Shown here: one piece after another, positions 5,416-22,398 of the stretch
Numbering within the stretch: position 1 is the stretch's first letter
Layout: the number at the start of each line of letters is the position of its first letter
DNA from: a virus
DNA length: 23,642 nucleotides
Virus record (IMG/VR): IMGVR_UViG_3300046318_000111
Coordinates: 1-23,642 of that record
Direction: 5' to 3' (one strand)
Notes under the pieces: model-generated
The model's database searches: none
Told to the model about the DNA's origin: nothing
The model's input: the letters and a program-made list of their open reading frames with translations, nothing else
Translations under genes and position numbers: made by a program

Positions 5416-5994
5416 ATGAGAACCAACTACCGCAAAATTTGGGAAAAATACAACAACCAAACCATTCCAGATGGGTTTGAAATACATCATAAAGATGGTG
5501 ATTTTTTAAATAATGATCCGTTGAATCTTCAACTAGTTACTATTGACGAACACCTTGAAATTCACCGTAAACAAGAAGATTGGGGAGCTGTTCAAGCTAT
5601 TTTAATGAGGATGGATAATCCCGCAGATATTAGCGACGTTGCAAGACGAGCTCAATTACATCGCTTAGAGTGCGGCACGCACAATTTTCAAAAGATGTCA
5701 AAAGAACGTAAGATGGAGGTGGGAGTTGCAGTTGGATTATATACTAGGGATCAAAAACTAGGAATCCATGCTATAAATGCTGATCCAATTTTGGCTCGCG
5801 AAAACGGCCGGCGTGGTGGATTAGTTGCAAAAGAAAAGAATGCGGGATTCTTGAATACCAAATCAGAAAAACACGGTAGTAAGGCGGTTAAAGGCACTTA
5901 CTGGTGGGTTACAAAAGACGGATCAAGAAAACGATCAAAGCAATGTCCCGGTGAGGGATGGGTCAAAGGTACAATATACAAGGAAACACAATGA
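5416..5994 (+). CDS. Free-standing HNH homing endonuclease
   Basis: A 192-residue protein with a strong AAGGAG. The HNH core is at residues 20-50: FEIHHKDGDFLNNDPLNLQL, followed by VTIDEHLEIH, with the paired His, central Asn and distal His visible. The middle is a basic helical DNA-contact region (ENGRRGGLVAKEK). The C-terminus (about residues 158-190) carries YWWVTKDGSRKRSKQCPGEG and then WVKGT, a Trp-Trp...PGxGW module that recurs in two GIY-YIG enzymes of this window. The gene sits directly before thyX, its stop overlapping the thyX ATG by four bases, so it rides in a nucleotide-metabolism operon but also has its own late promoter. It probably nicks or cuts an intronless neighbour gene to spread. 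Confidence 0.85.
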   Translation: MRTNYRKIWEKYNNQTIPDGFEIHHKDGDFLNNDPLNLQLVTIDEHLEIHRKQEDWGAVQAILMRMDNPADISDVARRAQLHRLECGTHNFQKMSKERKMEVGVAVGLYTRDQKLGIHAINADPILARENGRRGGLVAKEKNAGFLNTKSEKHGSKAVKGTYWWVTKDGSRKRSKQCPGEGWVKGTIYKETQ

Positions 5995-6715: not shown

Positions 6716-8521
6716 ATGACACAAACGATACACGGTATTACCGTAGATTATAGCAGAGATTCGCTATTAGATGAAATTGGAAAAGAAAGATTAAAAGACT
6801 CATATATGATGGAGGGAGAAACATCTCCCCAAGACCGATACGCTTATGTGTCAAAGGCGTTTTCGAGTAACCCACAGCACGCACAACGATTGTACGATTA
6901 CTCCAGCAAGCATTGGTTGGGTTATTCCACCCCAATTCTTTCGTTTGGGCGCAACTCCGCGGGATTACCTATCTCCTGCTTCCTTGTTAATGTGCATGAT
7001 TCAAAAGAGGGTTTGGTTGATGCTTTGTCAGAAGCAAATTGGTTGTCGATGCTTGGTGGTGGTGTAGGTGTATATTTTGGTACACGCGGTGCAGATGAGA
7101 AGTCAGTTGGAGTGATCCCTCATATGGGTGTTTATGATCGCTCGAGTCTTGCGTACAAGCAAGGTACGACTCGTCGTGGATCATATGCAATGTATTTGGA
7201 TATCAGCCACCCAGACATTGTTGAGTTCTTGGATATGCGTAAGGAGACAGGTGATCAGAATCGTCGTAGCCCTAACCTACACCACGGCGTTAACATTCCC
7301 AATTCGTTCATGGAAATTATTGAGCGATGCATGAAAGATCCACAGGCAGATGATTCGTGGGAGCTACGTGACCCGATGTCGGGTAAGCTACACGAGACCG
7401 TATCAGCAAAGGCACTGTGGACTGCCTTGCTCGAGCTTCGTGCAGGAGCCGGCCGTGGCGAGCCTTACGTTCACTTCATTGACAACGTTAACAACGCACT
7501 GCGTCCAATTCTCAAAGAGCGTGGTTACAAGGTTGTTCAATCGAATCTGTGTTCCGAGATTGAATTGATGACTGACAAAGATACTACTGCTGTGTGCTGC
7601 TTGTCTTCGATCAACCTCGAGCGTTGGGATGAGTACAAAGATAACTACCAATTCTTCCGTGATGTTATGGAGATGTTGGATAACGTGTTGCAGTACTTCA
7701 TCGACAATGCTCCTAAGCAGATCGCACGTGCAATCAAGTCTGCTATTGAAGAGCGTTCTGTCGGTCTTGGTGTGATGGGTTTCCACTCATACTTGCAAAA
7801 GAACATGATTGCATTTGATGGAGTGATGGCTAAAGGTGCAAACAATCGCATCTTCAAGCAGTTCCAGACCATGGTTGAACGCGCTAACCTAGAGCTCGGC
7901 GCTGAGCGTGGATCTCCAAAGTGGTTAGAAGGTACCGGTTTGCGTTTTGCTCACACATCCGCTCTTGCTCCTACTGCAACGAATGCTTTGATCTGTGGTA
8001 ATGTAAGCCCGTCAGCAGAACCATGGCGAGCAAACGCTTTCCGTCAAGACACGCTGTCTGGTACGTTTATCCAGAAGAACAAGCACTTGGATGCATTGCT
8101 GAAAGCAAAAGCGGAAGCTGGTGAGTGTAACTATGATGATGCTTGGTTGCACATTGTGCAAAACGATGGATCTGTTCAGGGCTTGGATTGCTTGACACAA
8201 ATTGAAAAAGATGTGTTCAAGACTGCATCAGAGATTGATCAGTTGTGGGCCGTCGAGCACGTTGCTGATCGTCAACCGTTTATTGACCAAGGACAGTCAT
8301 TCAATGTGTTCATTCGTCCAGACACAAGCATTGCTAAACTGCACGCTATTCACTTTATGGCCTGGCGCCGCGGCGTTAAGGCAATGTACTACGTTCGCAC
8401 AGAGAAGCTAGCAAACACTGATAAGGTTGGCAAACGAGTGGAGCGGGTCAGGATTGAAGATGAGGTAGAGCAACTTAGGCAGATTGCGGAGGATGGTATG
8501 TGCCTGAGTTGTGAAGGTTGA
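6716..8521 (+). CDS. nrdA: Class Ia ribonucleotide reductase large subunit NrdA
   Basis: A 601-residue catalytic subunit that reduces ribonucleoside diphosphates. ATG 6716 follows AGAGG; the upstream GTG 6671 lacks a good site. The active site is visible: a substrate Cys in ISCFLV, the NLCSEI loop carrying Asn, radical Cys and Glu, a second redox Cys in AVCCLSSINLE, the Tyr pair of the radical path in KAMYYVRTEK, and the C-terminal redox tail CLSCEG. It is much shorter than E. coli or T4 NrdA (about 750-760). The missing part is N-terminal, so the ATP-cone allosteric domain is absent and the enzyme is likely released from dATP feedback. A GIY-YIG gene separates it from nrdB. Confidence 0.96.
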   Translation: MTQTIHGITVDYSRDSLLDEIGKERLKDSYMMEGETSPQDRYAYVSKAFSSNPQHAQRLYDYSSKHWLGYSTPILSFGRNSAGLPISCFLVNVHDSKEGLVDALSEANWLSMLGGGVGVYFGTRGADEKSVGVIPHMGVYDRSSLAYKQGTTRRGSYAMYLDISHPDIVEFLDMRKETGDQNRRSPNLHHGVNIPNSFMEIIERCMKDPQADDSWELRDPMSGKLHETVSAKALWTALLELRAGAGRGEPYVHFIDNVNNALRPILKERGYKVVQSNLCSEIELMTDKDTTAVCCLSSINLERWDEYKDNYQFFRDVMEMLDNVLQYFIDNAPKQIARAIKSAIEERSVGLGVMGFHSYLQKNMIAFDGVMAKGANNRIFKQFQTMVERANLELGAERGSPKWLEGTGLRFAHTSALAPTATNALICGNVSPSAEPWRANAFRQDTLSGTFIQKNKHLDALLKAKAEAGECNYDDAWLHIVQNDGSVQGLDCLTQIEKDVFKTASEIDQLWAVEHVADRQPFIDQGQSFNVFIRPDTSIAKLHAIHFMAWRRGVKAMYYVRTEKLANTDKVGKRVERVRIEDEVEQLRQIAEDGMCLSCEG

Positions 8522-8558
8522 AATCTCTGTACTACTAAATAAGAGTAAGGAGAATACA

Positions 8559-9251
8559 ATGACCACCCCATACTTTTATAAGATCAGAGAGATTAGCACC
8601 GGTAAAATTTACGTGGGGTGTCAGTACGGCCAATGCGCGCACCCTACTAATTTTTGGGTAACGTATTTCACTTCATGTAAGTACGTTACCAGCCAGCCCC
8701 AAAGTTCATTTGAAGTTGTATCTATAATTACAAGGCCTGATGCTAGAGAGTATGAGCGTAGATATCTATCCAAAGCGTATAGGCTGATGGGGTCTTCTAA
8801 ATTTGAGCAAGTGTTTATAAACAGAAACCTGGCTCCAGGCGTCCTCTTTACTTCTGAGGTATTGAAGAAAATGTCTGATGGTGTTAAGGCCGCTACCCAA
8901 CGACGCAAAGATGCCGGTACATATTGTCCCACCTTCACTGGTCGCTCGCACACAGAAGAGACTAAAAGCATATTGTCCGATATGGCTAAAAAAAGATTAT
9001 CGGAGCAAGGCCACCCTCGAGGTATGTTGGGTAAGCACCACACAGAGGAAACAAAGCAACTGATTAGTGAAAAGGGTGTTGAAAATAGTGCGATGCGGGG
9101 TCGTTGTGGTGGCGACCATCCAACTGGAAATACTGTGTGGTGGAATAATGGCATCTCCCATATTAGATCAGCTAAGCACCCCGGAGATGGTTGGGTGCAG
9201 GGTCGAATATTTAAAACAAGATCAAAACGTAAGATTAAACCGAAAGAATAA
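8559..9251 (+). CDS. GIY-YIG homing endonuclease between nrdA and nrdB
   Basis: A 230-residue protein. ATG 8559 is chosen because of the upstream AAGGAG. The catalytic GIY-YIG domain is at residues 5-95 (YFYKIREISTGKIYVGCQYG, with the downstream Arg/Glu in YERRYLSK). Two NUMOD3-type DNA-binding repeats follow (GRSHTEETKSILSDMAKKRL and GKHHTEETKQLISEKG). The C-terminus carries VWWNNGISHIRSAKHPGDGW plus VQGR, the module also seen in the HNH enzyme before thyX. A homing endonuclease in the nrdA-nrdB gap is familiar in T-even phages (MobE, an HNH enzyme); here the niche is held by a different nuclease class. A CTAAATAAG box shortly upstream may be a weak late promoter. Confidence 0.88.
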   Translation: MTTPYFYKIREISTGKIYVGCQYGQCAHPTNFWVTYFTSCKYVTSQPQSSFEVVSIITRPDAREYERRYLSKAYRLMGSSKFEQVFINRNLAPGVLFTSEVLKKMSDGVKAATQRRKDAGTYCPTFTGRSHTEETKSILSDMAKKRLSEQGHPRGMLGKHHTEETKQLISEKGVENSAMRGRCGGDHPTGNTVWWNNGISHIRSAKHPGDGWVQGRIFKTRSKRKIKPKE

Positions 9252-10494: not shown

Positions 10495-10647
10495 ATGGCA
10501 ACAGTAAAACAATTTCAATGCGATCACTGTGGAGCAGAGGGTAAGATAACAATTAAAGGGACAGATGTTCAATTCGAAGATGTTGTTTACTGTCCCGTAT
10601 GCTCCGGAGATATCTTCGAAGAAGCAGAGTACGACGAAGAGGAATGA
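10495..10647 (+). CDS. Small zinc-ribbon protein
   Basis: A 50-residue protein: two CxxC knuckles (CDHC at residues 9-12 and CPVC at about residues 33-36) separated by 20 residues, then an acidic tail FEEAEYDEEE. Such minimal ribbons usually serve structural or nucleic-acid-binding roles. It begins one base after the preceding stop. Its last 61 bases are overlapped in antisense by the convergent endonuclease gene. Confidence 0.75.
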   Translation: MATVKQFQCDHCGAEGKITIKGTDVQFEDVVYCPVCSGDIFEEAEYDEEE

Positions 10648-11213
10648 CGGCCTTTGGTCCAACCTTCACCGGGTGAATCAAAAGATAATTTAGTTTCCCC
10701 GGTAAAGGAGGTCCACCAAGACCTTCCTTTCATTGAAACTGATTGTAAATGCTTACTAGACTCGCTTTTAATTTTACCTTTTAATGCGGTGGATATTTTT
10801 AATTTGTGTGTTTCAGATTTGGGTTTGTGGTTACCCACAGCATTCTTGTTGCCCATCATCTTACGCCTCGTAGTGGTAGACTTTGTAGCTCCTTTTGTAC
10901 TAACACTACAACAACCGTTGGGTTGTGCATATGCTACGTTAACATAAAGCGGTGATTGTACAACTTTCAAATGCTTTTGAAATTTTAACTCACGGTCGAG
11001 TGCTTCTTTACGGGTCGTATGTGTTGTCAGTACCGTCGTTTTAAATAGGTGTGGTGATTTTTGTATTTCTTGCTTCCATAACGAGCGATATTGGAAAGAT
11101 GATACGGACCCTTTATACCCTCTGTTGATCTTTTCAATGGATGTAGATCCTATATAAAATGGCGGTAGTTTATTACCCGTATATACGGTCAAGTACGTAC
11201 AATAAATAGTCAT
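10587..11213 (-). CDS. GIY-YIG homing endonuclease (minus strand)
   Basis: A 208-residue protein. ATG 11213 is chosen because of the AAGGAG seven bases upstream. GIY-YIG core: YCTYLTVYTG, then PPFYIGSTS (residues 4-26); catalytic Arg/Glu region RKEALDRELKFQK. A NUMOD3-type motif SETHKLKISTALKGKIKS is near residue 130. The module RSWWTSFTGETKLSFDSPGE followed by GWTKGR is near residues 163-188. The remaining tail is read antisense to the zinc-ribbon gene and looks like an accidental extension up to the first stop. It lies convergent to the nrd operon and has its own late promoter and structured leader (11241-11281). Confidence 0.85.
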   Translation of the reverse strand: MTIYCTYLTVYTGNKLPPFYIGSTSIEKINRGYKGSVSSFQYRSLWKQEIQKSPHLFKTTVLTTHTTRKEALDRELKFQKHLKVVQSPLYVNVAYAQPNGCCSVSTKGATKSTTTRRKMMGNKNAVGNHKPKSETHKLKISTALKGKIKSESSKHLQSVSMKGRSWWTSFTGETKLSFDSPGEGWTKGRHSSSSYSASSKISPEHTGQ

Positions 11214-11240
11214 GCTGATATCTCCTTGTAAGATGTTAGA

Positions 11241-11270
11241 GTGAGTGGATGTTGACGCATCGCGACTCAC
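11241..11270 (-). promoter_or_regulatory. Leader hairpin of minus-strand endonuclease
   Basis: On the minus strand: outer stem GTGAGT/ACTCAC, inner stem GATG/CATC, hexaloop CGTCAA. It lies about 30 bases before the ribosome-binding site. The leader of the other minus-strand endonuclease (16531-16560) keeps both stems through compensatory changes. Confidence 0.65.
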
Positions 11271-11273
11271 ACT

Positions 11274-11281
11274 TATTTATA
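11274..11281 (-). promoter_or_regulatory. T4-type late promoter (minus strand)
   Basis: TATAAATA on the minus strand, exact consensus, about 60 bases upstream of the endonuclease ATG at 11213. Confidence 0.75.
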
Positions 11282-11300
11282 TAAAAAAAAGGAATACAGC

Positions 11301-11714
11301 ATGGCATGGTTATATAAAGGCACTCCCATTGAAAGTATTGATACGCAACAATACTCCGCTTTTGTATATGTTATTACCAATCTCAAGACTAATCGCCTCT
11401 ACATCGGGTTGAAGCAGACTACATTTGCAAAGACAAAGCAAGTTAAGGGTAAGAAGAAACGTATTCGCGCTGAGTCAGATTGGCGCGAATACTGGTCGTC
11501 TTCCGAAGAGTTGAAGAAAGACGTTGCATTATTAGGTGAGGAGAATTTCAAACGGGAAATTCTCCACTTCTGTGAAATGAAGAGTCACGCTAACTACCTT
11601 GAAGCCCGTGAACAAATGGATAGACGGGTACTTGAAAACCCTGATAAATATTACAACGGTATCATTAACTGTAGAGTTAGCCGTAATCACGTAAAGAAAT
11701 TACTAGAAAAATGA
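11301..11714 (+). CDS. GIY-YIG-like conserved phage protein
   Basis: A 137-residue protein preceded by AAAAGGAA. It has a GIY-YIG-type N-terminal half (FVYVITNLKTNRLYIGLKQ, residues 21-39) and a conserved RAESDWREYW, then GEENFKREILHFC and YLEAREQMDRRVL (Glu in the position of the catalytic acidic residue). It is short, without NUMOD repeats or the Trp-Trp module of the true homing enzymes nearby. I recall similar proteins as core genes of many T4-type phages; a DenA-like (endonuclease II) or DNA-processing role is possible but unproven. It overlaps the next gene by four bases. Confidence 0.75.
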   Translation: MAWLYKGTPIESIDTQQYSAFVYVITNLKTNRLYIGLKQTTFAKTKQVKGKKKRIRAESDWREYWSSSEELKKDVALLGEENFKREILHFCEMKSHANYLEAREQMDRRVLENPDKYYNGIINCRVSRNHVKKLLEK

Positions 11715-12745
11715 TCCTCGTCATATTGATGTTCCTGTGCGCGCTGGCATTGTCGGGCGCTGCTGCATTTTATTCGATCGTCGGTTTGATGGCGATCTTT
11801 GCGGCCGCCCCTATGCCAATTGCAATTATGGGATCAATACTGGAGGGGTCTAAGCTAGTAATTGCTTCTTGGTTGTACCGCAATTGGAGCGAGTCCCCTA
11901 AATTAATGAGGGGATATCTAACAACTGCATTAGTAATCCTAATGTTTTTGACGTCCATGGGTATTTTTGGCTTCTTATCCAAAGCCCACATGGATCAGGC
12001 AGTACCAACAGGTGATGTGGCCGCACAAGTGGCGTTAATCGATGAAAAAATTGCAACAGAAAAGGAAAATCTAAATGCAGCTCGTAAAGCAATTGCTCAA
12101 CTGGATGAGCAAGTTAATCAAACCATCTCCAGAACAACCAGTGCAACCGATGACGCCGCCGTCAATCGATCCATTGCCATCCGTCGAGGACAAGCCAAAG
12201 AGCGAATGGCCTTATCCAACGACATCGGAGCAGCTCAAAGCCGGATCACCAAGCTCACCGAAGAAAAAGCCCCGCTCGCAACAGAGCTCCGCAAAGTCGA
12301 AGCCGAAGTCGGACCAATCAAATACATCGCAGCCCTCATCTACGGCGAAGAAGGTAGCTCAGACTCGACGCTCCTCGAAAAAGCCGTCCGCTGGGTAACA
12401 ATCCTAATTGTCTCGGTATTTGATCCTTTAGCGGTGGTACTATTAATCGCTGCTAATTGGTCTCTCTCTCATTTTAGGCGTAAGGAGCAAGTCGACCTCC
12501 CAGTCGCAGAGCCGGCACCACCAATTGTTGAAACTCCCCTAACTACCCCGAAAGAAGAGGTGGTTGTGGAGGACAGTCCAAAGCGCAAAAAGGTAAACAA
12601 AAAAGAAAAGCCTGCACCGGAATGGGAGATTGCTCCTCCACCACAACCTGTAAATGTTGATGCACCCGAACATCCAGATTTAGTTCCCGGGAACCAAAAT
12701 TGGGGTTCACGCCCACCCGAACATCTAACACCTAGACGTCGTTGA
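11711..12745 (+). CDS. Membrane protein with coiled coil and basic/Pro-rich tail
   Basis: A 344-residue protein. Hydrophobic segments lie at about residues 2-22, 23-48, 70-95 and 225-250. Between the third and fourth is a long coiled coil (residues 108-205, for example LIDEKIATEKENLNAARKAI). The C-terminal 90 residues are Pro/Glu/Lys-rich and probably disordered. No enzyme motif. Codon choice inside the coiled coil (about 12150-12340) is noticeably more C-rich than around it. Its start overlaps the previous stop by four bases. Function unknown; an envelope-associated early protein is possible. Confidence 0.7.
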   Translation: MILVILMFLCALALSGAAAFYSIVGLMAIFAAAPMPIAIMGSILEGSKLVIASWLYRNWSESPKLMRGYLTTALVILMFLTSMGIFGFLSKAHMDQAVPTGDVAAQVALIDEKIATEKENLNAARKAIAQLDEQVNQTISRTTSATDDAAVNRSIAIRRGQAKERMALSNDIGAAQSRITKLTEEKAPLATELRKVEAEVGPIKYIAALIYGEEGSSDSTLLEKAVRWVTILIVSVFDPLAVVLLIAANWSLSHFRRKEQVDLPVAEPAPPIVETPLTTPKEEVVVEDSPKRKKVNKKEKPAPEWEIAPPPQPVNVDAPEHPDLVPGNQNWGSRPPEHLTPRRR

Positions 12746-12786
12746 TCAAATAACAAGTACCTGTGATAATAGTCTCAGGTCAACAA

Positions 12787-12823
12787 AAAGCCAGCACTGG
12801 GTCTCTGTTGCTGGCTTTACCAT
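12787..12823 (+). terminator. Bidirectional-looking intrinsic terminator
   Basis: A perfect 10-bp stem AAAGCCAGCA/TGCTGGCTTT with a 12-base loop. The U-run is short on the plus strand (TTTACC) and longer on the minus strand (CTTTTTG), so it may work in both directions. A weak promoter (TTGCTG, 17 bases, GATAAT at 12831-12836) follows. Confidence 0.75.
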
Positions 12824-12856
12824 TTGGAGTGATAATGTAATTTTGAGGAATTTACT

Positions 12857-13135
12857 ATGAAATATGATACAACTGATCCGGAATTTCAAACTTGGGTAAA
12901 AGGCCTACTACATGATTCAAACGTCAAAAATCTGTGCATTACTTTCACCAAAACAGACGGCAGCGCTCGAGAGATGCGCTGCACCCTCGTCGAAAGTGCA
13001 ATCCCAGCAGAAAAGATCCCAAAGAACACAGATCGCCCGTCTTCTCCTACCACACAACGTGTCTTTGACGTTGACAAGCAAGAGTGGCGAAGCTTCAAGT
13101 GGGAGTCGGTAACCCGTGTCAAAGCTGACATCTGA
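12857..13135 (+). CDS. WYL_2/Sm-like SH3 beta-barrel family protein
   Basis: A 92-residue protein matching a small phage family (WYL_2, formerly DUF2693): a helix ending in LLHDSNVKNLCITFTKTDGS, then REMRCTLV, the linker PKNTDRPSSP and the strongly conserved end QRVFDVDKQEWRSFKWESVT. The fold suggests nucleic-acid or ligand binding; the role in phages is unknown. The start has a GAGG site eight bases upstream, and the 3' end overlaps the MazG-like gene. Confidence 0.85.
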   Translation: MKYDTTDPEFQTWVKGLLHDSNVKNLCITFTKTDGSAREMRCTLVESAIPAEKIPKNTDRPSSPTTQRVFDVDKQEWRSFKWESVTRVKADI

Positions 13136-13391
13136 ACAAGAAGAGATCCTGACGATTGCTCAGGAAGAATGTGCCGAGGTCATTCAAGTGGTTAGCAAGG
13201 GCAATCGCTTTGGATTCGATGTCGAGTACAATAGTAAGACAAATCGACAGAAGCTAACGCAAGAGGTTGGCGATGTCCTTTGTATGATAGACCTGATGGT
13301 TGAGAAAGATATCCTCACCGCCGAAGGTCTTGAGCAGGCTAAGAAAGCCAAACGTGAAAAACTTAAACAATGGTCTCGTATAGGAGTTTAA
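13116..13391 (+). CDS. MazG-like NTP pyrophosphohydrolase
   Basis: A 91-residue all-alpha NTP pyrophosphatase. The metal-binding motif EExxE...ExxD is visible as EECAEV (about residue 18) and QEVGDVL (about residue 50), with RFGFD between. Such enzymes hydrolyse (d)NTPs to monophosphates and in phages may tune nucleotide pools or alarmones. It starts at GTG inside the upstream gene and ends one base before the next ATG. Confidence 0.8.
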   Translation: MSKLTSEQEEILTIAQEECAEVIQVVSKGNRFGFDVEYNSKTNRQKLTQEVGDVLCMIDLMVEKDILTAEGLEQAKKAKREKLKQWSRIGV

Positions 13392-13392
13392 C

Positions 13393-13674
13393 ATGACTAT
13401 TTCCAATCCAGTCGATCGCAAAAAGATTCGCGACGCACTTCAAGAAGCATCCAACAGTCTCACACGCATCAGCGCAGAACGCGATCTCATTAAAGAGATT
13501 GTGGCTGATCTTGCAGAGCAATATGAGCTACTGTCCAAGAAGCAGATCAACAAGATGGTTCGTGTGTATCACAAACAAAACTTCACAGAAGAACAAGCTG
13601 CGTCTAGTGAGTTCGAGCAACTGTATGAAGAAATTGTTCTGATGAACACTGGGACTACAGGTACACAAACCTAA
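13393..13674 (+). CDS. dsbA: DsbA-like dsDNA-binding / late transcription factor
   Basis: A 93-residue helical protein. The pattern ISAERDLIKEIVADLAEQYE, then KKQINKMVRVYHKQNF and FEQLYEEIV, lines up with T4 DsbA, an 89-residue dsDNA-binding protein that enhances late transcription. The fit is by eye, including the conserved YHKxN motif. It is the last gene before a strong sigma70 promoter. Confidence 0.7.
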   Translation: MTISNPVDRKKIRDALQEASNSLTRISAERDLIKEIVADLAEQYELLSKKQINKMVRVYHKQNFTEEQAASSEFEQLYEEIVLMNTGTTGTQT

Positions 13675-13677
13675 TTG

Positions 13678-13706
13678 TTGACGTCCACTCCAGACTCTTA
13701 TACAAT
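13678..13706 (+). promoter_or_regulatory. Sigma70 early promoter
   Basis: TTGACG (13678-13683), a 17-base spacer and TACAAT (13701-13706), 27 bases before the ATG of the next gene, which has TGGAGA as its ribosome site. Confidence 0.8.
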
Positions 13707-13732
13707 GAGTTCTTATTGAATGGAGAACCATT

Positions 13733-14851
13733 ATGGCAACAGCACAACGTAAACATAAGAGCCTGGAGCACTCGATGACTATCCTTACGGGAGGCCATGA
13801 ACCGGTCATCCGTAAGGAAAGATATCGCGAAGATCTGATGACTGCCCTGAACTGGTATAACGCAAATCGCGAAGAAAAAGACTTCCGAGCATATGCAGAT
13901 TACTACATCAAAAACTCCCCCGAACTAAAAGAGTACAGTTACGCCATCTCTAAGGCTTCGTTCCTTGAGATTAAGGGTATTGGTGTGATTGGACGGTTGA
14001 TTCGCCGAGATCAATACATCGACATCAAAGATATGATGAACACTTTGAGTCGGTTAGAAGTGTTAAAAGCAAAGTACCCCAAGACAAGCGCTGTGGAGAA
14101 GAAAGCTACCGTTGCTGCGGTTGCACCGTTAAATGTTCAGGATAGAATTGCAGAAACCGCTAGCAAGTTCGCAGCCGATGTTGATGAGCAAATTGACACC
14201 TTCACAAAACAGAAGACCAACGACTTTTCCATGAAAAGTTTCTTGGCCGGCAATGCAGTGTCTGGTATCGTGGCCAAGAAGATTGGTACAAAGTACCTTC
14301 GCCTCGCAAAAGAACTCGATGAGGCAATTGCAACCCGTGCTGATCCACAGCTCAAAGAGGGCTACTCTCACTTTACAAAACCTCAGCTGCGGAAGTTTGC
14401 TGAGTTCATCAAATCAATCATTGCAGACTGCAACCAACAGGTTGTCTCAGCAAAGACGGCTCGCAAACCGAAAGCTCGCAAGGTTAAGCCAGCGTCTGTG
14501 ATTGCTGCAAAGATCAAGCCCATGAAAGAGTACCCGGAATTGAAGCTTGTGTCGATTGAGCCGGCGAAGATCATTGGTGCAGATGAGTTGTGGGTATACA
14601 TTCCAGCGTCTCGAAAGCTAACTGTATTCCGCGGAGTAGACGGTAAACCACTTAGCGTCAGCCGGACTTCCATCACCAATTACGACGTTGAGAAATCCGA
14701 AACAAAAACCATTCGCAAACCAGAGCAGTTCTTCAAGGGTCTGTCGTATGGTAAGCGAGCAATGGCAAATGCTTGGAAATCAATTGAAACCAAACCATCG
14801 AAGGCACGTGCCCGCATCACCGATGACATGATTTTGTTGGCAGCAAACTAA
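13733..14851 (+). CDS. Conserved hypothetical phage protein
   Basis: A 372-residue basic protein with its own promoter. The N-terminal 100 residues contain an HHH-like stretch (ASFLEIKGIGVIGRLIRR). The middle is coiled and Lys/Ala-rich, and residues 235-260 are a very basic linker (KTARKPKARKVKP). The C-terminal domain has LWVYIPASRKLTVFRG, then LSVSRTSITNYD and EQFFKGLSYGKRAMANAW, suggesting a small beta-rich fold. DNA binding is plausible from composition only. It is followed directly (TAATG) by a small gene and then RNase H. Confidence 0.7.
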   Translation: MATAQRKHKSLEHSMTILTGGHEPVIRKERYREDLMTALNWYNANREEKDFRAYADYYIKNSPELKEYSYAISKASFLEIKGIGVIGRLIRRDQYIDIKDMMNTLSRLEVLKAKYPKTSAVEKKATVAAVAPLNVQDRIAETASKFAADVDEQIDTFTKQKTNDFSMKSFLAGNAVSGIVAKKIGTKYLRLAKELDEAIATRADPQLKEGYSHFTKPQLRKFAEFIKSIIADCNQQVVSAKTARKPKARKVKPASVIAAKIKPMKEYPELKLVSIEPAKIIGADELWVYIPASRKLTVFRGVDGKPLSVSRTSITNYDVEKSETKTIRKPEQFFKGLSYGKRAMANAWKSIETKPSKARARITDDMILLAAN

Positions 14852-15030
14852 TGAATACTACACTCGCCAAACTACAAGAAAATTGCTCCTCATATGAGGA
14901 GTTTAGTGAAAAGATTCTACAAGATTTCGTACGTTCAATTGATAAAGAAGTAAATTATGCCACATTTGCGCTAATTTCTAATTTTATCTATCAACGATAC
15001 GGAGTCCGGAGCAATGTTTGGAAAGATTAA
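14851..15030 (+). CDS. Small hypothetical protein
   Basis: A 59-residue helical protein (LQENCSSYEEFSEKILQDFV, then EVNYATFALISNFIYQRYG). It starts in a one-base TAATG overlap with the previous stop. No family recognised. Confidence 0.55.
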   Translation: MNTTLAKLQENCSSYEEFSEKILQDFVRSIDKEVNYATFALISNFIYQRYGVRSNVWKD

Positions 15031-15075
15031 GCACTCCACACAAATATGAAGTGATTACAATAGAATGGAAAATAA

Positions 15076-15969
15076 GTGATTTTAATTGACTACAGCCAAG
15101 TTTGCCTCGCAAACATCTTTCAGTTCCAATCGGATCTGAAAAAGAATAATAACAGCCCAGAAGCTGTTAACATCATCCGTCACGCTATCCTGACCGGATT
15201 GAAGTACTACAAGAAGAAGTACGGTGCCAAATACGGTGAGATGGTCATTGCGTGTGACGGCCGTAATTACTGGCGCAAGGAAATCTTTCCTTACTACAAA
15301 GCGGGGCGTTCAAAGACCCGTGAAAAGTCTGATCTTGATTGGAAGTTGATTTTTGATACAATCAGCCAGATCCGTGAAGACCTGTCATTGCACTTTCCAT
15401 ACCGTGTTGTTCACGTCGATCGAGCAGAGGCAGATGATGTGATTGCTACGATGTGTAAGTGGACCCAAACAAATGGGTTGATTGACCATGGAATGTTTGA
15501 GGATAAACAAGATGTGATGATCATCTCCTCAGACGGTGACTTTAAACAACTCCACAAATACACTAACGTCAAGCAGTGGAGCCCTATTCAGAAGAAGGTA
15601 GTGGAGTGCAGTAATCCAATCGCATATCTCGCTCAACACATTGCAAAAGCTGGTGATGATGGAATTCCAAACATCTTGAGTGCAGACAATGTATTGGTCA
15701 CTGAGGGTGTTCGACAGGGCAAGATGACTGCCAAAAAGCTCGAAGCTTTTGTTGAACGTGGCCGCGACGCGTGCGAGAATGATGAACAGCGTCGGAACTG
15801 GGACCGCAACAACCAGCTGATCAACTTGGATCTGATCCCAGCAGATATTGAGCAAATGATTGTAGATACATATACAAGCAGCACCCCGAAGGGTGATCGT
15901 ATGTCGATATACCAGTACTTAGTCAAACACCGGTGTCGTCTGCTACTTGATGAGGTAGAGGAGTTCTGA
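15076..15969 (+). CDS. rnh: RNase H / 5'-3' flap exonuclease (T4 Rnh-like)
   Basis: A 297-residue FEN-1-family nuclease, close to T4 RNase H (305). It removes RNA primers and adjacent DNA from the lagging strand. Conserved acidic residues are visible: the opening ILIDYSQ, ACDGRNYWRKEIFPYYKAGR, the VDRAEADDVIATM cluster and IISSDGDFKQL. The gene begins with GTG 15076 and a weak site. It pairs functionally with the primase upstream. Its 3' end is overlapped for 27 bases by a convergent GIY-YIG gene. Confidence 0.93.
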   Translation: MILIDYSQVCLANIFQFQSDLKKNNNSPEAVNIIRHAILTGLKYYKKKYGAKYGEMVIACDGRNYWRKEIFPYYKAGRSKTREKSDLDWKLIFDTISQIREDLSLHFPYRVVHVDRAEADDVIATMCKWTQTNGLIDHGMFEDKQDVMIISSDGDFKQLHKYTNVKQWSPIQKKVVECSNPIAYLAQHIAKAGDDGIPNILSADNVLVTEGVRQGKMTAKKLEAFVERGRDACENDEQRRNWDRNNQLINLDLIPADIEQMIVDTYTSSTPKGDRMSIYQYLVKHRCRLLLDEVEEF

Positions 15970-16503
15970 TGGGTGATGAAATTTGAGCCACTTGTTGAAG
16001 TTACTGAGAGTGAGTTCTTTTCTATCAACCAACCGGCACACAGTTTTAGGTTTTGGCCGCCCCTTAAGGGCAGCAGCGATTTTTAATTTATGGCCGTCTG
16101 CCTTACATTGCCCCTTGAGAGATGTAGACACACCCTTGCGCCGAGAGTTGACTTCAATCATCCACGGGTTAGTTCGTCCAAGTCTAGCTGCGGACATCTT
16201 TTGTCGGGTGGTTGGGGAGATTTTAGAATTATCTCCGCCAGCAGTCAAATTACGAAGGCATCCTGTCCCTAGGTCGACTCTCCCATACCAAGATATTAGA
16301 CGTCGTTCAATAGCCAAGGCGCCCAACTCCGTTAGATTTTGCTCACATACAACGATGTGAGATGGGTTTTGGGGAATGTGGATGTTGTGCTTTTGTACTG
16401 CTCTTCTACCCACACCCTTACCGATGTAATATGGGGTGCCGTCGGCGCGAATATAAGCATAGACATAAAACCCCACTGGGGTTTGAAAGCTATATAAAGA
16501 CAT
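15943..16503 (-). CDS. GIY-YIG homing endonuclease (minus strand)
   Basis: A 186-residue protein. GIY-YIG core: FYVYAYIRADGTPYYIGKG (residues 12-30), then GRRA and the ERRLISWYGR segment carrying the catalytic Glu. It continues with NLTAGGDNSKISPTTRQKMS and a NUMOD3-type LKIAAALKGRPKP. The tail VCRLVDRKELTLSNFNKWLK matches a terminus often seen in phage homing enzymes; the last dozen residues run antisense into the end of rnh. ATG 16503 has AAGGAG seven bases upstream. The leader is nearly identical to that of the enzyme at 10587-11213. Confidence 0.87.
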   Translation of the reverse strand: MSLYSFQTPVGFYVYAYIRADGTPYYIGKGVGRRAVQKHNIHIPQNPSHIVVCEQNLTELGALAIERRLISWYGRVDLGTGCLRNLTAGGDNSKISPTTRQKMSAARLGRTNPWMIEVNSRRKGVSTSLKGQCKADGHKLKIAAALKGRPKPKTVCRLVDRKELTLSNFNKWLKFHHPSELLYLIK

Positions 16504-16530
16504 GCTGATATCTCCTTGTAAGATGTTAGA

Positions 16531-16571
16531 GTGGGTGGAGAGTGCAATCTCGCGACCTACACCTATTTATG
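16531..16571 (-). promoter_or_regulatory. Late promoter and leader hairpin of minus-strand endonuclease
   Basis: On the minus strand: CATAAATA (16564-16571, 7/8 to the late consensus), then a hairpin with outer arms GTAGGT/ACCCAC and inner arms GAGA/TCTC (16531-16560), ahead of the same 33-base segment with the AAGGAG site that precedes the enzyme at 11213. Confidence 0.65.
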
Positions 16572-16600: not shown

Positions 16601-17113
16601 ATGGCAAACAAGTATATTACAGAACTATTGAAAGAAATCAATGACGATCCGTCATTGCTGACAACAACCTATAAAAAGGTCGGTAATGGAGGACCACTAG
16701 CAGTCTTCTTTGGTCACGCTTTCACAGCGAAGGGGAAGTTCCTGTTACCTGATGGAGAGCCCCCATACAAACCAAACCCAAACCCACAAGGGATGACTCA
16801 GGCTATCTTTCAACAAGAGATTAACAAATTTTATGTATTTTGCCGTGCAGACCTGAAAGCCGCAAAGCGTGAGACGATGTTTGTCCAATTGATGGAAAAT
16901 ATTCACCCATCAGAAGCCAAGATTCTTTTGGCGGTGAAGGATCAGGAATTGACGAAGTTGTACCCCAACATCACTCGTACGGTCGTAGCTGCCGCTGGTT
17001 TCATTCCACCTTTGACTGCAGAGGAGTTGAAGCAGGAAGAAGCAGAAGTAAAAAAATCCGCAGGGCCGAAGGCAAAGTCTCCCAAATCGGAAACCCCCCA
17101 ACCGGCCCTGTAA
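16601..17113 (+). CDS. Conserved T4-type phage protein, unknown
   Basis: A 170-residue protein preceded by AAGGAG. The central part, GKFLLPDGEPPYKPNPNPQG, then FYVFCRADLKAAKRETMF and ENIHPSEAKILLAVKDQELT, is characteristic of a protein family shared by marine T4-like phages as I recall it, usually without assigned function. The last 35 residues are Glu/Lys/Pro-rich and probably disordered. It follows the minus-strand endonuclease. Confidence 0.8.
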   Translation: MANKYITELLKEINDDPSLLTTTYKKVGNGGPLAVFFGHAFTAKGKFLLPDGEPPYKPNPNPQGMTQAIFQQEINKFYVFCRADLKAAKRETMFVQLMENIHPSEAKILLAVKDQELTKLYPNITRTVVAAAGFIPPLTAEELKQEEAEVKKSAGPKAKSPKSETPQPAL

Positions 17114-19785: not shown

Positions 19786-20190
19786 ATGAAACAATGTACT
19801 GGATGTAAAGAAACAAAGCTGTTTACAGATTTTTGTAAACAAACAAAGTCAAAAGATGGTTATCAGCCTAGATGCAAAGCTTGCATGGCGGTGTCGTATA
19901 ACCGAAGTAGAAATAAAAAAATTGATCACTATCAACAAGTTGCCAAAGTCCGTCGCGACCAGATCCAAGATTTGGTTAGTCAATGGAAATCTGAGCGCGG
20001 TTGTGTAGTGTGTAAAGAAGATTTTAGCCCTTGCTTAGAATTGCATCATACTGACCCAAGTAATAAAGAGGGAGATCCCTCATCATTTGCTAATCACAGT
20101 TTTGAAGCTTTCTTGCAAGAAGCGTCAAAGTGTATTATTCTCTGTGCAAATTGTCACAGAAAAGTGCACTTTGGGTTTATTACAGTTTAA
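19786..20190 (+). CDS. HNH endonuclease with N-terminal zinc finger
   Basis: A 134-residue protein with an AGGAGG site. An N-terminal Cys4 finger (CTGCKETKLFTDFC..., then CKAC) precedes a helical linker. The HNH/zinc unit is CVVC...LELHHTDPSNKEGD (residues 75-105) closing with CIILCANCHRKVHFG, with the catalytic His pair and the C-terminal NCH visible. This is a common mobile phage nuclease type. A hairpin ACGCT-AAATA-AGCGT with a late-like TAAATA lies just upstream. The stop codon ends at 20190 and tRNA-Pro begins at 20191. Confidence 0.85.
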   Translation: MKQCTGCKETKLFTDFCKQTKSKDGYQPRCKACMAVSYNRSRNKKIDHYQQVAKVRRDQIQDLVSQWKSERGCVVCKEDFSPCLELHHTDPSNKEGDPSSFANHSFEAFLQEASKCIILCANCHRKVHFGFITV

Positions 20191-20266
20191 CTCGCATTGG
20201 GATAATTGGTAGTCCACCTGATTTGGGGTCAGGAAGGTGCACGTTCAAGTCGTGTGTGCGAGACCA
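20191..20266 (+). tRNA. tRNA-Pro (UGG)
   Basis: Complete cloverleaf: acceptor CTCGCAT/GTGCGAG, D arm GGA/TCC, anticodon arm CCTGA-TTTGGGG-TCAGG, T arm GCACG-TTCAAGT-CGTGT, encoded CCA. It begins on the base after the HNH stop codon. Confidence 0.92.
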
Positions 20267-20274
20267 AAGTTTTT

Positions 20275-20349
20275 GCCCTTGTATCCTTAATGGTAGAGGT
20301 TCGCCTTTGTAACGCGAGTGCGGTGGTTCGATTCCATCCTGGGGCACCA
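20275..20349 (+). tRNA. tRNA-Thr (UGU)
   Basis: Acceptor GCCCTTG/CTGGGGC with one T-T mismatch, anticodon loop TTTGTAA (UGU at 20308-20310) over a stem with a C-C pair at 31-39, T arm GGTGG-TTCGATT-CCATC, encoded CCA. Confidence 0.88.
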
Positions 20350-20357
20350 AAGATTAT

Positions 20358-20432
20358 ACTGTCGTCGTCTAGTGGCTAGGACGCTACCCTTTCAAGGTGG
20401 AGAAGCGGGATCGATACCCGTCGACAGTACCA
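20358..20432 (+). tRNA. tRNA-Glu (UUC), copy 1
   Basis: Acceptor ACTGTCG/CGACAGT, D stem GTC/GAC, anticodon arm CTACC-CTTTCAA-GGTGG, T arm GCGGG-ATCGATA-CCCGT with A at position 54, encoded CCA. A second diverged copy lies at 23130. Confidence 0.93.
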
Positions 20433-20460
20433 AAACAGCAGAGGCCCAGTCGGTCGTTCT

Positions 20461-20468
20461 TATAAATA
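20461..20468 (+). promoter_or_regulatory. T4-type late promoter TATAAATA
   Basis: Exact late box 20 bases before the next gene, continuing as CTTCCAA exactly as at 22714. Confidence 0.75.
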
Positions 20469-20488
20469 CTTCCAATAATGGAGGGTTT

Positions 20489-20890
20489 ATGGAATTTGCA
20501 AATGTAAAAATAAACGTGTCAAAGACACAGGGTAATGTCGGTGTAGCACGTGCTGTGTATGAGTACACCAAAATGGGATATACAGTACTTGCGCCACTTT
20601 CTGACAGCGACAAATATGATCTTGTTGTTGATGATGGGTCTTCATTAAAGAAGGTTCAGGTCAAGACATCAAGGTGTGCATCTCGTTCAGGTGGTTACAC
20701 AATCAACCTAAAAACGAGTGGAGGAAATACAAAAGTCAACACAATACGAAAGCGTAGCCCAGATGACTATGATCTATTGTTTGTGTTGACCGAAACCGGG
20801 AAATGTTGGAACATACCGGTATTGGCTCTAGGTGATGCCGGGTCTTCAATTATAGTTGGAGCCAACAAGTACACGGAGTATGAATTATAA
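20489..20890 (+). CDS. PD-(D/E)XK homing endonuclease (I-Ssp6803I-like)
   Basis: A 133-residue protein; ATG 20489 has a GGAGGG site. The nuclease core is visible: NVGVARAVYEYTKMGYTVLA with an early Glu, KYDLVVDDG with the catalytic Asp, QVKTSR with the QxK lysine, and DLLFVLTETGKCWNIP. This matches the group I intron-associated PD-(D/E)XK family whose model, I-Ssp6803I, targets a tRNA-fMet gene in cyanobacteria. No intron is visible here; the gene is free-standing between tRNA genes. Its stop codon ends at 20890, one base before the tRNA-Tyr-like gene. Confidence 0.85.
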   Translation: MEFANVKINVSKTQGNVGVARAVYEYTKMGYTVLAPLSDSDKYDLVVDDGSSLKKVQVKTSRCASRSGGYTINLKTSGGNTKVNTIRKRSPDDYDLLFVLTETGKCWNIPVLALGDAGSSIIVGANKYTEYEL

Positions 20891-20979
20891 GGGTGGTGCC
20901 CCCTACGGCGGTCTGTAAAACCGTTGGCTTTGTTAAGTAGGGAAGTTGCCTCGTGGAGCGTTACCATCATCACCCACCA
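20891..20979 (+). tRNA. tRNA-Tyr-like (GUA) with collapsed D arm
   Basis: Acceptor GGGTGGT/ATCACCC plus CCA and anticodon arm GCGGT-CTGTAAA-ACCGT (GUA at 20915-20917) are clear. Only about ten bases lie between acceptor and anticodon arm, too few for a D arm. Instead CCCTAC there is complementary to GTAGGG in an overlong variable region of about 27 nt. The T arm is weak (GTGG-AGCGTTA-CCAT). A canonical tRNA-Tyr exists at 21517. Confidence 0.6.
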
Positions 20980-20986
20980 AGTTAAT

Positions 20987-21061
20987 GGTCCTGTCATATA
21001 GTGGTTATTATACCGGCCTGTCTAGTCGGATATCGGGGTTCGATTCCCCGCAGGATCGCCA
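20987..21061 (+). tRNA. tRNA-Asp (GUC), copy 1
   Basis: Acceptor GGTCCTG/CAGGATC, anticodon arm CCGGC-CTGTCTA-GTCGG, T arm CGGGG-TTCGATT-CCCCG, G73 and encoded CCA. A diverged copy lies at 23211. Confidence 0.93.
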
Positions 21062-21066
21062 ATTAT

Positions 21067-21137
21067 TGCGGGGATTCAGGCGATCGGTCAGTCTCATAAG
21101 CTCGGCCTAGAGGTTTCGAATACCTCCTCCGCATCCA
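21067..21137 (+). tRNA. tRNA-Met-type (CAU), short D region
   Basis: Acceptor TGCGGGG/CTCCGCA, anticodon loop CTCATAA (CAU at 21095-21097) on a weak stem, T arm GAGGT-TTCGAAT-ACCTC, encoded CCA. Only 14 bases cover the D region. A lysidine-type Ile tRNA is an alternative for CAU. Confidence 0.7.
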
Positions 21138-21180
21138 AACTCTCCCTGACATATGGAGTACAATGAGATAAGTTATATGT

Positions 21181-21289
21181 CATCTTTCTAAAACATGCTG
21201 CGGCTGAGGCTAAGCCGTTATGTGGACCATAGCTGGGCCGGTTGGCTCGGTCACCAGTTCAATTCTGGTAAGCATGTTTTAGAAAGATG
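21181..21289 (+). tRNA. tRNA-Ser-like (GGA) within a 19-bp stem
   Basis: The body is type II: D arm GGC-TGAGGCTAA-GCC, anticodon arm GTTAT-GTGGACC-ATAGC (GGA at 21224-21226), variable arm GGGCC-GGTT-GGCTC, T arm ACCAG-TTCAATT-CTGGT. The acceptor continues as a perfect 19-bp helix (21181-21199 with 21271-21289). No CCA is encoded. The last arm base is also the first base of tRNA-Ala. The tRNA proper would be about 21193-21278. Confidence 0.65.
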
Positions 21290-21363
21290 GGGACAGCAAT
21301 GGGTTGCGGAGATGCCTTGCAAGTATCTTGACTAGAAGGGTTCGATTCCCTCGGTCTCCACCA
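21289..21363 (+). tRNA. tRNA-Ala (UGC)
   Basis: Acceptor GGGGACA/GGTCTCC with the seventh pair mismatched, D arm GCA-ATGGGT-TGC, anticodon arm GATGC-CTTGCAA-GTATC, T loop TTCGATT over AGGG/CCCT, encoded CCA. Confidence 0.85.
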
Positions 21364-21368
21364 AGTTA

Positions 21369-21424
21369 CGGGACAAAAAGACAATTCTGATAAGAATTTA
21401 TTCTGCATTTCATTAGTCCCGCCA
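21369..21424 (+). tRNA. Minimal tRNA-like element (Ile GAU?)
   Basis: Only 56 nt: terminal stem CGGGAC/GTCCCG followed by CCA, and a central hairpin AATTC/GAATT whose loop region reads CTGATAA, as in tRNA-Ile(GAU). No D arm and no TTCGA T loop. It could be a degenerate remnant or a truncated mimic. Confidence 0.35.
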
Positions 21425-21430
21425 TTTTAT

Positions 21431-21509
21431 CTGTGTGTAGCTCAGTCCGGCCTAGAGTCCTCGTTTTGGAAGCGAGATGTCGGAGGTTCAAATCCTCCCA
21501 CACAGACCA
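21431..21509 (+). tRNA. tRNA-Pro-type (UGG), copy 2
   Basis: Acceptor CTGTGTG/CACACAG, anticodon arm CTCGT-TTTGGAA-GCGAG, T arm GGAGG-TTCAAAT-CCTCC, encoded CCA. It differs widely from the copy at 20191, so it is not a recent duplicate. Confidence 0.88.
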
Positions 21510-21516
21510 GTTTTTT

Positions 21517-21603
21517 GGATGATCGATAACGTTGGAGTGTTATGGCTGGCTGTAACCCAGTTGCCTTAGGGCTTAGTAGGTTCGAATCCTACATCATCCA
21601 CCA
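21517..21603 (+). tRNA. tRNA-Tyr (GUA)
   Basis: Canonical type II: acceptor GGATGAT/ATCATCC, D arm ATAAC-GTTGGAGT-GTTAT, anticodon arm GCTGG-CTGTAAC-CCAGT (GUA at 21552-21554), variable arm GCC-TTAG-GGC, T arm GTAGG-TTCGAAT-CCTAC, CCA. Confidence 0.9.
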
Positions 21604-21610
21604 ATTTTAC

Positions 21611-21685
21611 GCCTGCGTGGCAGAATAGTTATGCAACGGATTGCAAACCCGTTACAAATAGGTGCAAGTCCTATCGCAGGTTCCA
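21611..21685 (+). tRNA. tRNA-Cys (GCA)
   Basis: Acceptor GCCTGCG/CGCAGGT, anticodon loop TTGCAAA (GCA at 21643-21645) with an A-C pair at 31-39, T arm ATAGG-TGCAAGT-CCTAT, encoded CCA. Confidence 0.88.
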
Positions 21686-21803
21686 TTTAATGGTTGAAGA
21701 GGCACGATACCTAACCAGTTGAATGTTATTCCACCCTGATGAAATACACGTCCCCAGGCTGCTTGGTCGCAGTTATGTACGTGTTGAGTAGTCTAAAGTT
21801 TAT
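21686..21803 (+). other. Unassigned spacer in tRNA array
   Basis: 118 nt between tRNA-Cys and tRNA-Gly. Hairpins TGGTT...AGG-CACGATA-CCT-AACCA (from 21690) and ACACGT/ACGTGT around CTGC-TTGGTC-GCAG are visible. No T loop or coding frame. Confidence 0.4.
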
Positions 21804-21880
21804 GCGTGCTTAGCTCAGTTTGGTAGAGCAGAACGTTGCCAACGTTCAGGTCGCAGGTTCGAACCCTGTAGCCCGCACCA
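21804..21880 (+). tRNA. tRNA-Gly (GCC)
   Basis: Acceptor GCGTGCT/AGCCCGC (one mismatch), D arm GCTC/GAGC, anticodon arm GAACG-TTGCCAA-CGTTC, T arm GCAGG-TTCGAAC-CCTGT, encoded CCA. Confidence 0.92.
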
Positions 21881-21886
21881 AGTTAT

Positions 21887-21957
21887 CCCTGTTGTAGTGT
21901 AATGGGAGCACACAACTGCCGGCAGAAGTGAAGGTTCGAATCCTTCCAGCAGGGGCC
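21887..21957 (+). tRNA. tRNA-like gene, isotype uncertain
   Basis: Eight-bp acceptor CCCTGTTG/CAGCAGGG, D arm GTG-TAATGGGAG-CAC and T arm GAAGG-TTCGAAT-CCTTC are good. The anticodon arm is poor: a mismatched helix around loop GCCGGCA (21918-21924), which would present CGG with C33, and almost no variable loop. CCA is incomplete (CCT). Confidence 0.5.
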
Positions 21958-22019
21958 TAGTTTAGGATCCGTTCAGCAACTCAAAAAATTCAACTGTTAA
22001 TTGAAAAATAAGGATCCTG

Positions 22020-22048
22020 TTGTTTTTAATCTTGTTCTGATGTATAAT
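22020..22048 (+). promoter_or_regulatory. Sigma70 promoter, extended -10
   Basis: TTGTTT, 17 bases, TATAAT with a TG extension. It follows an inverted repeat AGGATCC...GGATCCT (near 21964-22018) that may end upstream transcripts. It drives the small basic protein and tRNAs behind it. Confidence 0.7.
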
Positions 22049-22068
22049 CAGTGTTTTAGGAGAATGTA

Positions 22069-22203
22069 GTGAGTAAACGAAAACCAATCGTGCGCGAACG
22101 TAACTGCTTCGTTCGTCTAGCACTGTTCCGCAAAGCAGGGTCGCACCGTAAGAGCAACAAAGCTCTACGTAAAGCGGCAAACCAATCAGCAAATTGGGCC
22201 TGA
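22069..22203 (+). CDS. Small basic phage protein
   Basis: A 44-residue protein starting at GTG 22069 with an AGGAG site six bases upstream. The sequence, KRKPIVRERN, then LFRKAGSHRKSNKALRKAAN, resembles short Arg/Lys-rich proteins (R.P..R......KA..HR..KK) that I recall as common in phages and that probably bind RNA or DNA. It has its own promoter. Its last eight bases, including the TGA stop, are also the 5' acceptor strand of tRNA-Lys. Too short for routine gene calling, but start, site and composition are convincing. Confidence 0.75.
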   Translation: MSKRKPIVRERNCFVRLALFRKAGSHRKSNKALRKAANQSANWA

Positions 22204-22269
22204 AACTTTAAGGTGAAGTAACTGGCTTTTAACCAGTAAAACTCGGATCGTTACCGAGCGGGCCTACCA
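22196..22269 (+). tRNA. tRNA-Lys (UUU)
   Basis: Acceptor GGGCCTG/CGGGCCT, D arm ACTT-TAAGGTG-AAGT, anticodon arm ACTGG-CTTTTAA-CCAGT, T arm CTCGG-ATCGTTA-CCGAG, A73 and encoded CCA. The acceptor contains the stop codon of the upstream protein gene. Confidence 0.93.
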
Positions 22270-22353
22270 TATGCAAACACATTGCCCTAGAAGCGGTGAG
22301 ATGAATGACACAATAGGCTCACAAGGGGTGTCGCAGTGTGTTTACATATGGTA
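22265..22353 (+). ncRNA. Pseudoknotted RNA element in long inverted repeat
   Basis: Outer arms TACCATATG and AAACACA pair with TGTGTTT and CATATGGTA (one C-A mismatch), continuing as CACATTG/CAGTGTG. Inside, GTGAG/CTCAC forms a hairpin whose loop sequence GACAC (22307-22311) can pair with GTGTC (22328-22332), and CCCT can pair with AGGG. No T loop. The left arm uses the CCA of tRNA-Lys. Confidence 0.45.
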
Positions 22354-22398
22354 AACAGGAGTAATTACCCTGCCCATGTTGGGGAGTCATGACCCCAA

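Follow-up and report, generated by a model that had tools for sequence, protein, structure and literature searches.

A portable two-hairpin module ahead of homing endonuclease genes in T4-like phages, and a candidate antisense RNA encoded on its opposite strand

Why do two homing endonuclease genes that encode quite different proteins start from nearly the same leader, and in which strand does the conserved structure of that leader reside? The question is raised by a 23,642-bp viral contig of a T4-like phage (IMG/VR record IMGVR_UViG_3300046318_000111; this whole stretch is called the window here), in which the ~70 bases before the minus-strand start codons ATG 11213 and ATG 16503 align without gaps. 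A first-pass annotation made from the letters alone had described this alignment correctly, including its coordinates. The late promoter motif is conserved upstream of the two leaders (TATAAATA and CATAAATA), a ribosome-site segment is common to both, and the hairpin between them carries the compensatory changes that had been reported (outer A-T to G-C, inner GATG/CATC to GAGA/TCTC) along with a single A·C mismatch in the leader before ATG 16503. The 32 bases up to the ATG are the same in both leaders (ACTCTAACATCTTACAAGGAGATATCAGCATG), where a dinucleotide-shuffle control expects 0, and the identity ends near the promoter on the upstream side and a few codons into the open reading frame (ORF) on the downstream side. 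The dissimilarity of the proteins was likewise borne out by BLASTP, which found only weak similarity, in the NUMOD repeats (E 7e-5, 31% over 71 amino acids). The two genes are as follows.

10587..11213, minus strand: homing endonuclease 1, 208 amino acids, with a GIY-YIG-like N-terminus and NUMOD-like repeats (phrog_10820, E 1.6e-33; phrog_314 homing endonuclease, E 1.6e-21; relatives in 171 phage records)
15943..16503, minus strand: homing endonuclease 2, 186 amino acids, GIY-YIG-like with NUMOD3 (NUMOD3, E 1e-4; phrog_15526, E 7e-21)

The two leaders belong to a family of ~145 distinct copies in viral contigs. Seed pattern 1 comprised the promoter and the first stem, and seed pattern 2 was written without the promoter; part of the outer stem is fixed by the seed patterns, some of which required the upstream promoter. 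Pattern 1 returned 80 viral-contig loci, ~70 of them with a complete leader, and pattern 2 a further large set with TAAATA a few nucleotides upstream in nearly all. A covariance model, R1, found 118 copies from 100 sources, ~15 of them beyond the seed patterns and with the same features. Single contigs hold up to 13, 9, 8, and 6 copies (contigs of 361, 134, 259, and 95 kb). That the family arose by chance or from search patterns that fix part of the outer stem has next to no probability, as the promoter together with both variable pairs occurs in 0 of 120 cellular-genome loci matching the pattern, and the covariance models reached copies outside the patterns. An exact-string search of viral contigs for the ribosome-site segment returned nothing, and BLAST of the whole window and of the leader against isolated phages gave no useful match except Variovorax phage V45v66. 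When seven isolated phages were searched whole with a second covariance model (R2), three yielded one copy each, in every case before an endonuclease gene (Variovorax phage V45v66, at 86005-86061; Pseudoalteromonas phage vB_Psh_XG4, at 56144-56205; and Rhizobium phage RHph_I1_18, at 80302-80359). None of the covariance models of Rfam 15 matched the leaders, whether gathering or relaxed thresholds were applied, and no description of this RNA or module family was found in the literature searched, which had most subscription journals outside its coverage. A weak match to the ROSE_3 thermometer (RF02523, 34.9 bits, gathering 43, E 7.5e-4) was seen in one viral contig (L164:5741-5803, plus strand).

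When the ~145 copies were examined for stems broken without compensation, the stems held, with compensatory changes. The arm-swap z values were -15.4 for the inner stem of hairpin 1, -14.8 for the outer variable pairs, and -11.3 for a second hairpin around the ribosome site, which the first-pass annotation had overlooked. The covariation score of alignment A1 was 0.522 compared to 0.158 +/- 0.010 after shuffling. In a tree-aware test, in which substitutions were re-dealt on the tree, 9 of 15 pairs lay above all 200 nulls, and same-branch double changes numbered as many as 21 per pair. What looks like an internal loop, 'CGC/C', consists of a G-C pair flanked by two bulged C, and in several copies it has become CAC/T (L341, L344, L350, L359, and L367). 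A role of the conserved CTCT as an anti-Shine-Dalgarno switch was rejected, as on inspection CTCT is unchanged when the ribosome site becomes GGAA or GGAC.

The A·C mismatch in the leader before ATG 16503 proved to be the key clue to the strand, because it is a G·U pair on the complement. Throughout the family the 'mismatches' of the sense strand are almost all A·C, i.e., G·U on the other strand, and the covariation therefore fits the strand opposite the endonuclease mRNA. Among distinct stems, sense A·C stood against G·U at 9:0 in the outer stem, 9:6 in the inner stem, and 39:5 in hairpin 2, and the 43 leaders outside the reach of the seed patterns contained 50 A·C versus 4 G·U (p 3.8e-11). 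The fold energies point the same way: the mean minimum free energy (MFE) was -18.4 for antisense versus -14.0 for sense, with antisense lower in 107 of 118 copies and folding better in 41 of 45 model-found copies, and RNAalifold gave -22.96 for antisense versus -14.54 for sense. In the antisense alignment 97.7% of cells are paired. Wobble asymmetry and energies together indicate that a stable stem-loop has been selected on the antisense strand, and the matches of R2 lie on the strand opposite the ORF and cover the ribosome site and the leader, as expected of an antisense RNA. Its consensus reads G-CUGA(N4)-7-nucleotide loop-(N4)UUAG-A-hairpin with two bulged G, where hp2' is the CUGA..UUAG hairpin of 8-9 bp with an anti-Shine-Dalgarno loop and hp1' is the hairpin that follows. 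In the window the predicted RNAs and the ribosome sites that they cover are located as follows.

11214..11270, plus strand: structured antisense RNA, copy 1 (R2 60.6 bits, E 3.5e-14; all consensus pairs standard; MFE -19.5 antisense versus -13.4 sense); G(+1) 11214, hp2' 11215-11223 / loop 11224-11230 / 11231-11239, A, hp1' 11241-11270 with two bulged G
11222..11227, minus strand: Shine-Dalgarno sequence AAGGAG of endonuclease 1, from sequence, complementary to the loop and stem of hp2'
16504..16560, plus strand: structured antisense RNA, copy 2 (R2 58.3 bits, E 1.4e-13; MFE -21.1 antisense versus -9.4 sense); hp2' 16505-16513 / 16514-16520 / 16521-16529, A, hp1' 16531-16560
16512..16517, minus strand: Shine-Dalgarno sequence AAGGAG of endonuclease 2, from sequence

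The claim of a conserved regulatory RNA cassette linked to different homing enzymes can thus be kept in part. The cassette is conserved, structured, truly covarying, and linked to many different homing enzymes; the assignment of the folded RNA to the leader of the endonuclease mRNA was not supported, as the opposite strand is favoured by wobble asymmetry, fold energies, the position of the 5′ end, and an inverted promoter motif within the ORF. The first-pass annotation had noticed neither that motif nor the opposite-strand signal. If the hairpins did act in the endonuclease mRNA, its leader would be a late one, with the ribosome site masked by the second hairpin. The late promoter immediately upstream, the position of the ribosome site within hairpin 2, and the ribosome-site hairpins of T4 I-TevI, I-TevII, I-TevIII, segB, and Aeh1 mobE (PMC2988022) speak for this possibility. 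We nevertheless consider it improbable, because a sense-strand fold of the T4 type is not what A·C in excess of G·U indicates, and because in ~40% of copies an mRNA starting at the predicted site would lack part of the first hairpin. We do not favour a longer stem of early transcripts, in which the upstream TATAAATA would pair with TATTTAT behind the ATG: the two segments are complementary but invariant, and their flanks lack covariation (arm-swap z -0.7).

The TATTTAT directly behind the start codon is the reverse complement of ATAAATA. Its distance to CAGC is mostly 4-7 nucleotides while start codon and frame shift, as illustrated by one HNH family whose proteins start with MYLQNKYT, MIFIDNKYT, or MLFINNKYT. 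At MxIY starts the Ile codon is ATT in 88 of 100 cases versus a fraction of 0.41 in the same genes (p 1.7e-22) and the Tyr codon is TAT in 91 of 100 versus 0.73 (p 4.5e-6), a synonymous-codon bias which shows that the constraint is on the nucleotides. The spacing TAAATA-N5-GCTG was found in 80 of 129 copies. Since the T4 late promoter rule places the motif at -13 to -6 (PMC1524935), transcription would be expected to start on the G of GCTG, where the predicted antisense RNA begins. ATAAATA-N5-GCTG, with its spacing, codon bias, and frame drift, is a candidate for the antisense RNA's own promoter at the level of a sequence motif. On the sense side, TAAATA is present upstream in 141 of 147 copies, a count to be read with the knowledge that some seed patterns required it. 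The matrix of this sense promoter resembles that of the inverted one, but it occurs at two spacings, 3 or 5 nucleotides, with the share of the 3-nucleotide spacing inflated by the first seed pattern. The late mRNA start predicted from it falls within the 5′ arm of the hairpin in 59 of 141 copies, including both window copies, which have the 3-nucleotide spacing. The promoters facing each other across the two window leaders are the following.

11274..11281, minus strand: TATAAATA, sense late promoter of endonuclease 1, with a start by the T4 rule at ~11268, within the 5′ arm of hairpin 1
11202..11208, plus strand: putative inverted late-promoter core ATAAATA in the first codons of endonuclease 1, 5 nucleotides before the G at 11214 (sequence; family-wide spacing and synonymous-codon test)
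16564..16571, minus strand: CATAAATA, sense late promoter of endonuclease 2 (sequence)
16493..16500, plus strand: TATAAAGA, putative degenerate inverted promoter (sequence; one mismatch, 3-nucleotide spacing), the weaker of the two window copies

We computed here a module, its reuse by unrelated endonucleases, the strand on which it folds, and the nucleotide-level conservation of an inverted promoter motif with fixed spacing. The mechanism that we propose is that a portable control module of 75-80 bp, attached to free-standing homing endonucleases of T4-like phages, would be flanked by two inward-facing late promoters, the upstream one driving the endonuclease mRNA and the other, inverted in the first codons of the endonuclease, being expected to start at the first base of the two-hairpin RNA. 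This RNA would be complementary over its full length to the endonuclease mRNA at its ribosome site and 5′ leader, and would most likely restrain translation of that mRNA, similar to the action of RNA-OUT on the IS10 transposase. Where the next gene is close and divergent, the inverted promoter would also provide its late transcript, with the two hairpins as the 5′ end. We regard this combination of a restraining antisense RNA and a supply of the divergent neighbour as a probable account, held with limited confidence.

In the window each leader has a divergent neighbour gene, and no late promoter lies between leader 1 or leader 2 and its respective neighbour.

11301..11714, plus strand: divergent neighbour of leader 1, SegE_GIY-YIG family (Pfam PF19835, E 7e-37)
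16601..17113, plus strand: divergent neighbour of leader 2, DUF6433 (Pfam PF20025, E 9e-19)

A SegE_GIY-YIG gene is also the divergent neighbour of the leader in Rhizobium phage RHph_I1_18 (79836-80276); the label 'NAD synthetase' that PHROG 447 and a GenBank record give to the protein is likely a misannotation. Of 109 leaders, 60 have a divergent and 30 a codirectional neighbour, and the arrangement is unclear for the other 19. The ATG of a divergent neighbour lies within 60 nucleotides in 27 cases, 25 of which have no late promoter of the neighbour's own in between and 22 of which keep the inverted promoter, suggesting that the module probably drives the neighbour too. These numbers raise the possibility that the opposite strand chiefly serves the next-door gene, as its late promoter and protective 5′ leader, in that an inserting endonuclease displaces its neighbour's late promoter and supplies a substitute, while the 5′ hairpins stabilise the neighbour's mRNA. 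T4 endonuclease genes do carry embedded promoters for displaced neighbours (PMC2988022), and we take this possibility seriously while judging it rather unlikely. Behind a codirectional gene the RNA leads nowhere useful, and yet in these 30 contexts the antisense fold wins in 27 and the inverted promoter is kept in 27, so that fold, wobble bias, and inverted promoter are retained in divergent and codirectional settings alike. A role solely as the 5′ untranslated region of the neighbour was rejected, as it fails for the codirectional copies. The extent of the RNA over the ribosome site and 5′ leader, together with the neighbour data, favours an antisense brake with a secondary promoter role for the neighbour.

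Several points weigh against such a brake. The firing of the inverted promoter, the 3′ end of the RNA, and the repression are inferred. With no intrinsic terminator predicted after hp1' on the plus strand of the window, the existence of a short free RNA cannot be taken for granted. Among the 60 divergent cases, 15 lack the inverted motif in its strict form, and the second window copy has a degenerate version of it. The invariant CUGA/UUAG with a fixed G·U and the two bulged G exceed what simple antisense pairing needs; these invariant parts may indicate a protein partner. A folded single DNA strand is also compatible with the wobble bias, as G·T would be tolerated. The element might then work as DNA, its folded strand being recognised by a recombination or replication protein during cassette spread as in integron attC sites, and bulged bases, a strand-specific fold, sequence-conserved edges, and reuse of the module fit this idea. 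We consider it very unlikely in view of the late-promoter motifs at both edges with their transcription-start spacing, the diversity of the genes that the copies adjoin, and the edges themselves, which by eye do not match the consensus of an attC core site.

The antisense brake would act on a broad set of enzymes. Among 103 distinct downstream proteins of at least 100 amino acids, PHROG 314 was assigned in 64 and PHROG 655 in 42, both being annotated as 'homing endonuclease'; Pfam detected NUMOD3 in 45, others matched HNH or GIY-YIG models, and the remaining ones show GIY-YIG, HNH, or NUMOD3 features by eye. Essentially every readable ORF behind the leader is thus predicted to be of a homing-endonuclease type (GIY-YIG, HNH, or NUMOD3). 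NUMOD3-repeat ORFs in which no nuclease domain was recognisable follow intact leaders at L046:2007-2450, L085:1092-1544, and L149:5715-6167. As the RNA ends at the flank, a scaffold of an RNA-guided nuclease was also considered and rejected, there being no evidence for it and the proteins carrying NUMOD DNA-binding motifs. Loci L010 and L024 share an identical 81-nucleotide block (68 nucleotides plus ATGAATATTTATT) followed by different endonucleases, which indicates that the module and not the gene is the shared unit. About 10 leaders precede truncated endonuclease ORFs, and intact leaders before broken or nearly deleted ones (L101:1191-1249, L103:4561-4616, L048:4874-4932, L122:4407-4465, and L146:8179-8235) suggest that the module can persist after the gene has decayed. 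Even a single phage does not have it before every such gene, since other endonuclease-like genes of the window are without it (5416-5994, 8511-9251, 19786-20190, and 22740-23066, plus strand). The window also contains an array of 12 tRNA genes (20191-23563, plus strand) interrupted by HNH-like and PD-(D/E)XK endonuclease ORFs. A terminator-like hairpin, AAGGAAGCGGTCT-GCG-AGACCGCTTCCTT, passes straight into TATAAATACTTCCAACAGGAGG ahead of the HNH-like ORF at 22740 (22690-22735, plus strand), and within the array the PD-(D/E)XK ORF is preceded by TTATAAATACTTCCAATAATGGAGGG, a promoter/ribosome-site string that closely resembles it (20455-20490, plus strand).

An RNA antisense to a homing endonuclease gene of a T4-like phage has a precedent in CfrI of cyanophage S-PM2, which is co-expressed with the gene and thought to be regulatory (PMC2984593); no other antisense RNA to a homing endonuclease was found in the literature searched. 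CfrI is ~225 nucleotides long and joins one endonuclease gene to psbA, whereas the RNA of the module would belong to a two-hairpin family of 55-57 nucleotides with its promoter motif inside the ORF, shared by many endonuclease families and repeated many times within a genome. RNA-OUT of IS10/Tn10 and Asr9 of ISPpu9 are likewise structured RNAs, encoded on the opposite strand by the mobile element itself, that cover the ribosome site and 5′ leader of its mobility enzyme (PMC5006887, PMC8450116). They belong to transposons with one transposase type each, in contrast to the homing endonucleases and phage late promoters of the module, and Asr9 activates instead of repressing (PMC5006887, PMC8450116), unlike the action favoured here. 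The hairpins of T4 I-TevI, segB, and Aeh1 mobE also combine a T4-like homing endonuclease, a late promoter, and RNA structure at the ribosome site, but they are individual sense-mRNA folds that depend on early versus late transcript starts (PMC2988022). Embedded promoters of T4 seg and mob genes serve an adjacent, displaced gene from within the endonuclease ORF (PMC2988022); the putative one of the module is inverted, fixed in the first codons, part of a conserved unit, and kept without a divergent neighbour.

Methodologically, the asymmetry between G·U and A·C can reveal a leader hairpin to be a feature of the opposite strand. The module, which Rfam does not contain, is easily found by a covariance model and is carried by isolated Variovorax, Pseudoalteromonas, and Rhizobium phages. 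Its built-in pair of RNA and promoter on the opposite strand, which moves along with the nuclease, could also repair the transcription of a neighbour. Repeated capture of the module by unrelated nucleases (GIY-YIG, HNH, and NUMOD3) might even give a phage a shared, trans-acting antisense RNA restraining all resident copies, a tentative idea that we would not presently bet on; if true, this RNA could dampen incoming copies, perhaps with a dedicated binding protein. The module is a concrete and common candidate answer to the question of how phages tolerate a dozen DNA-cutting selfish genes per genome.

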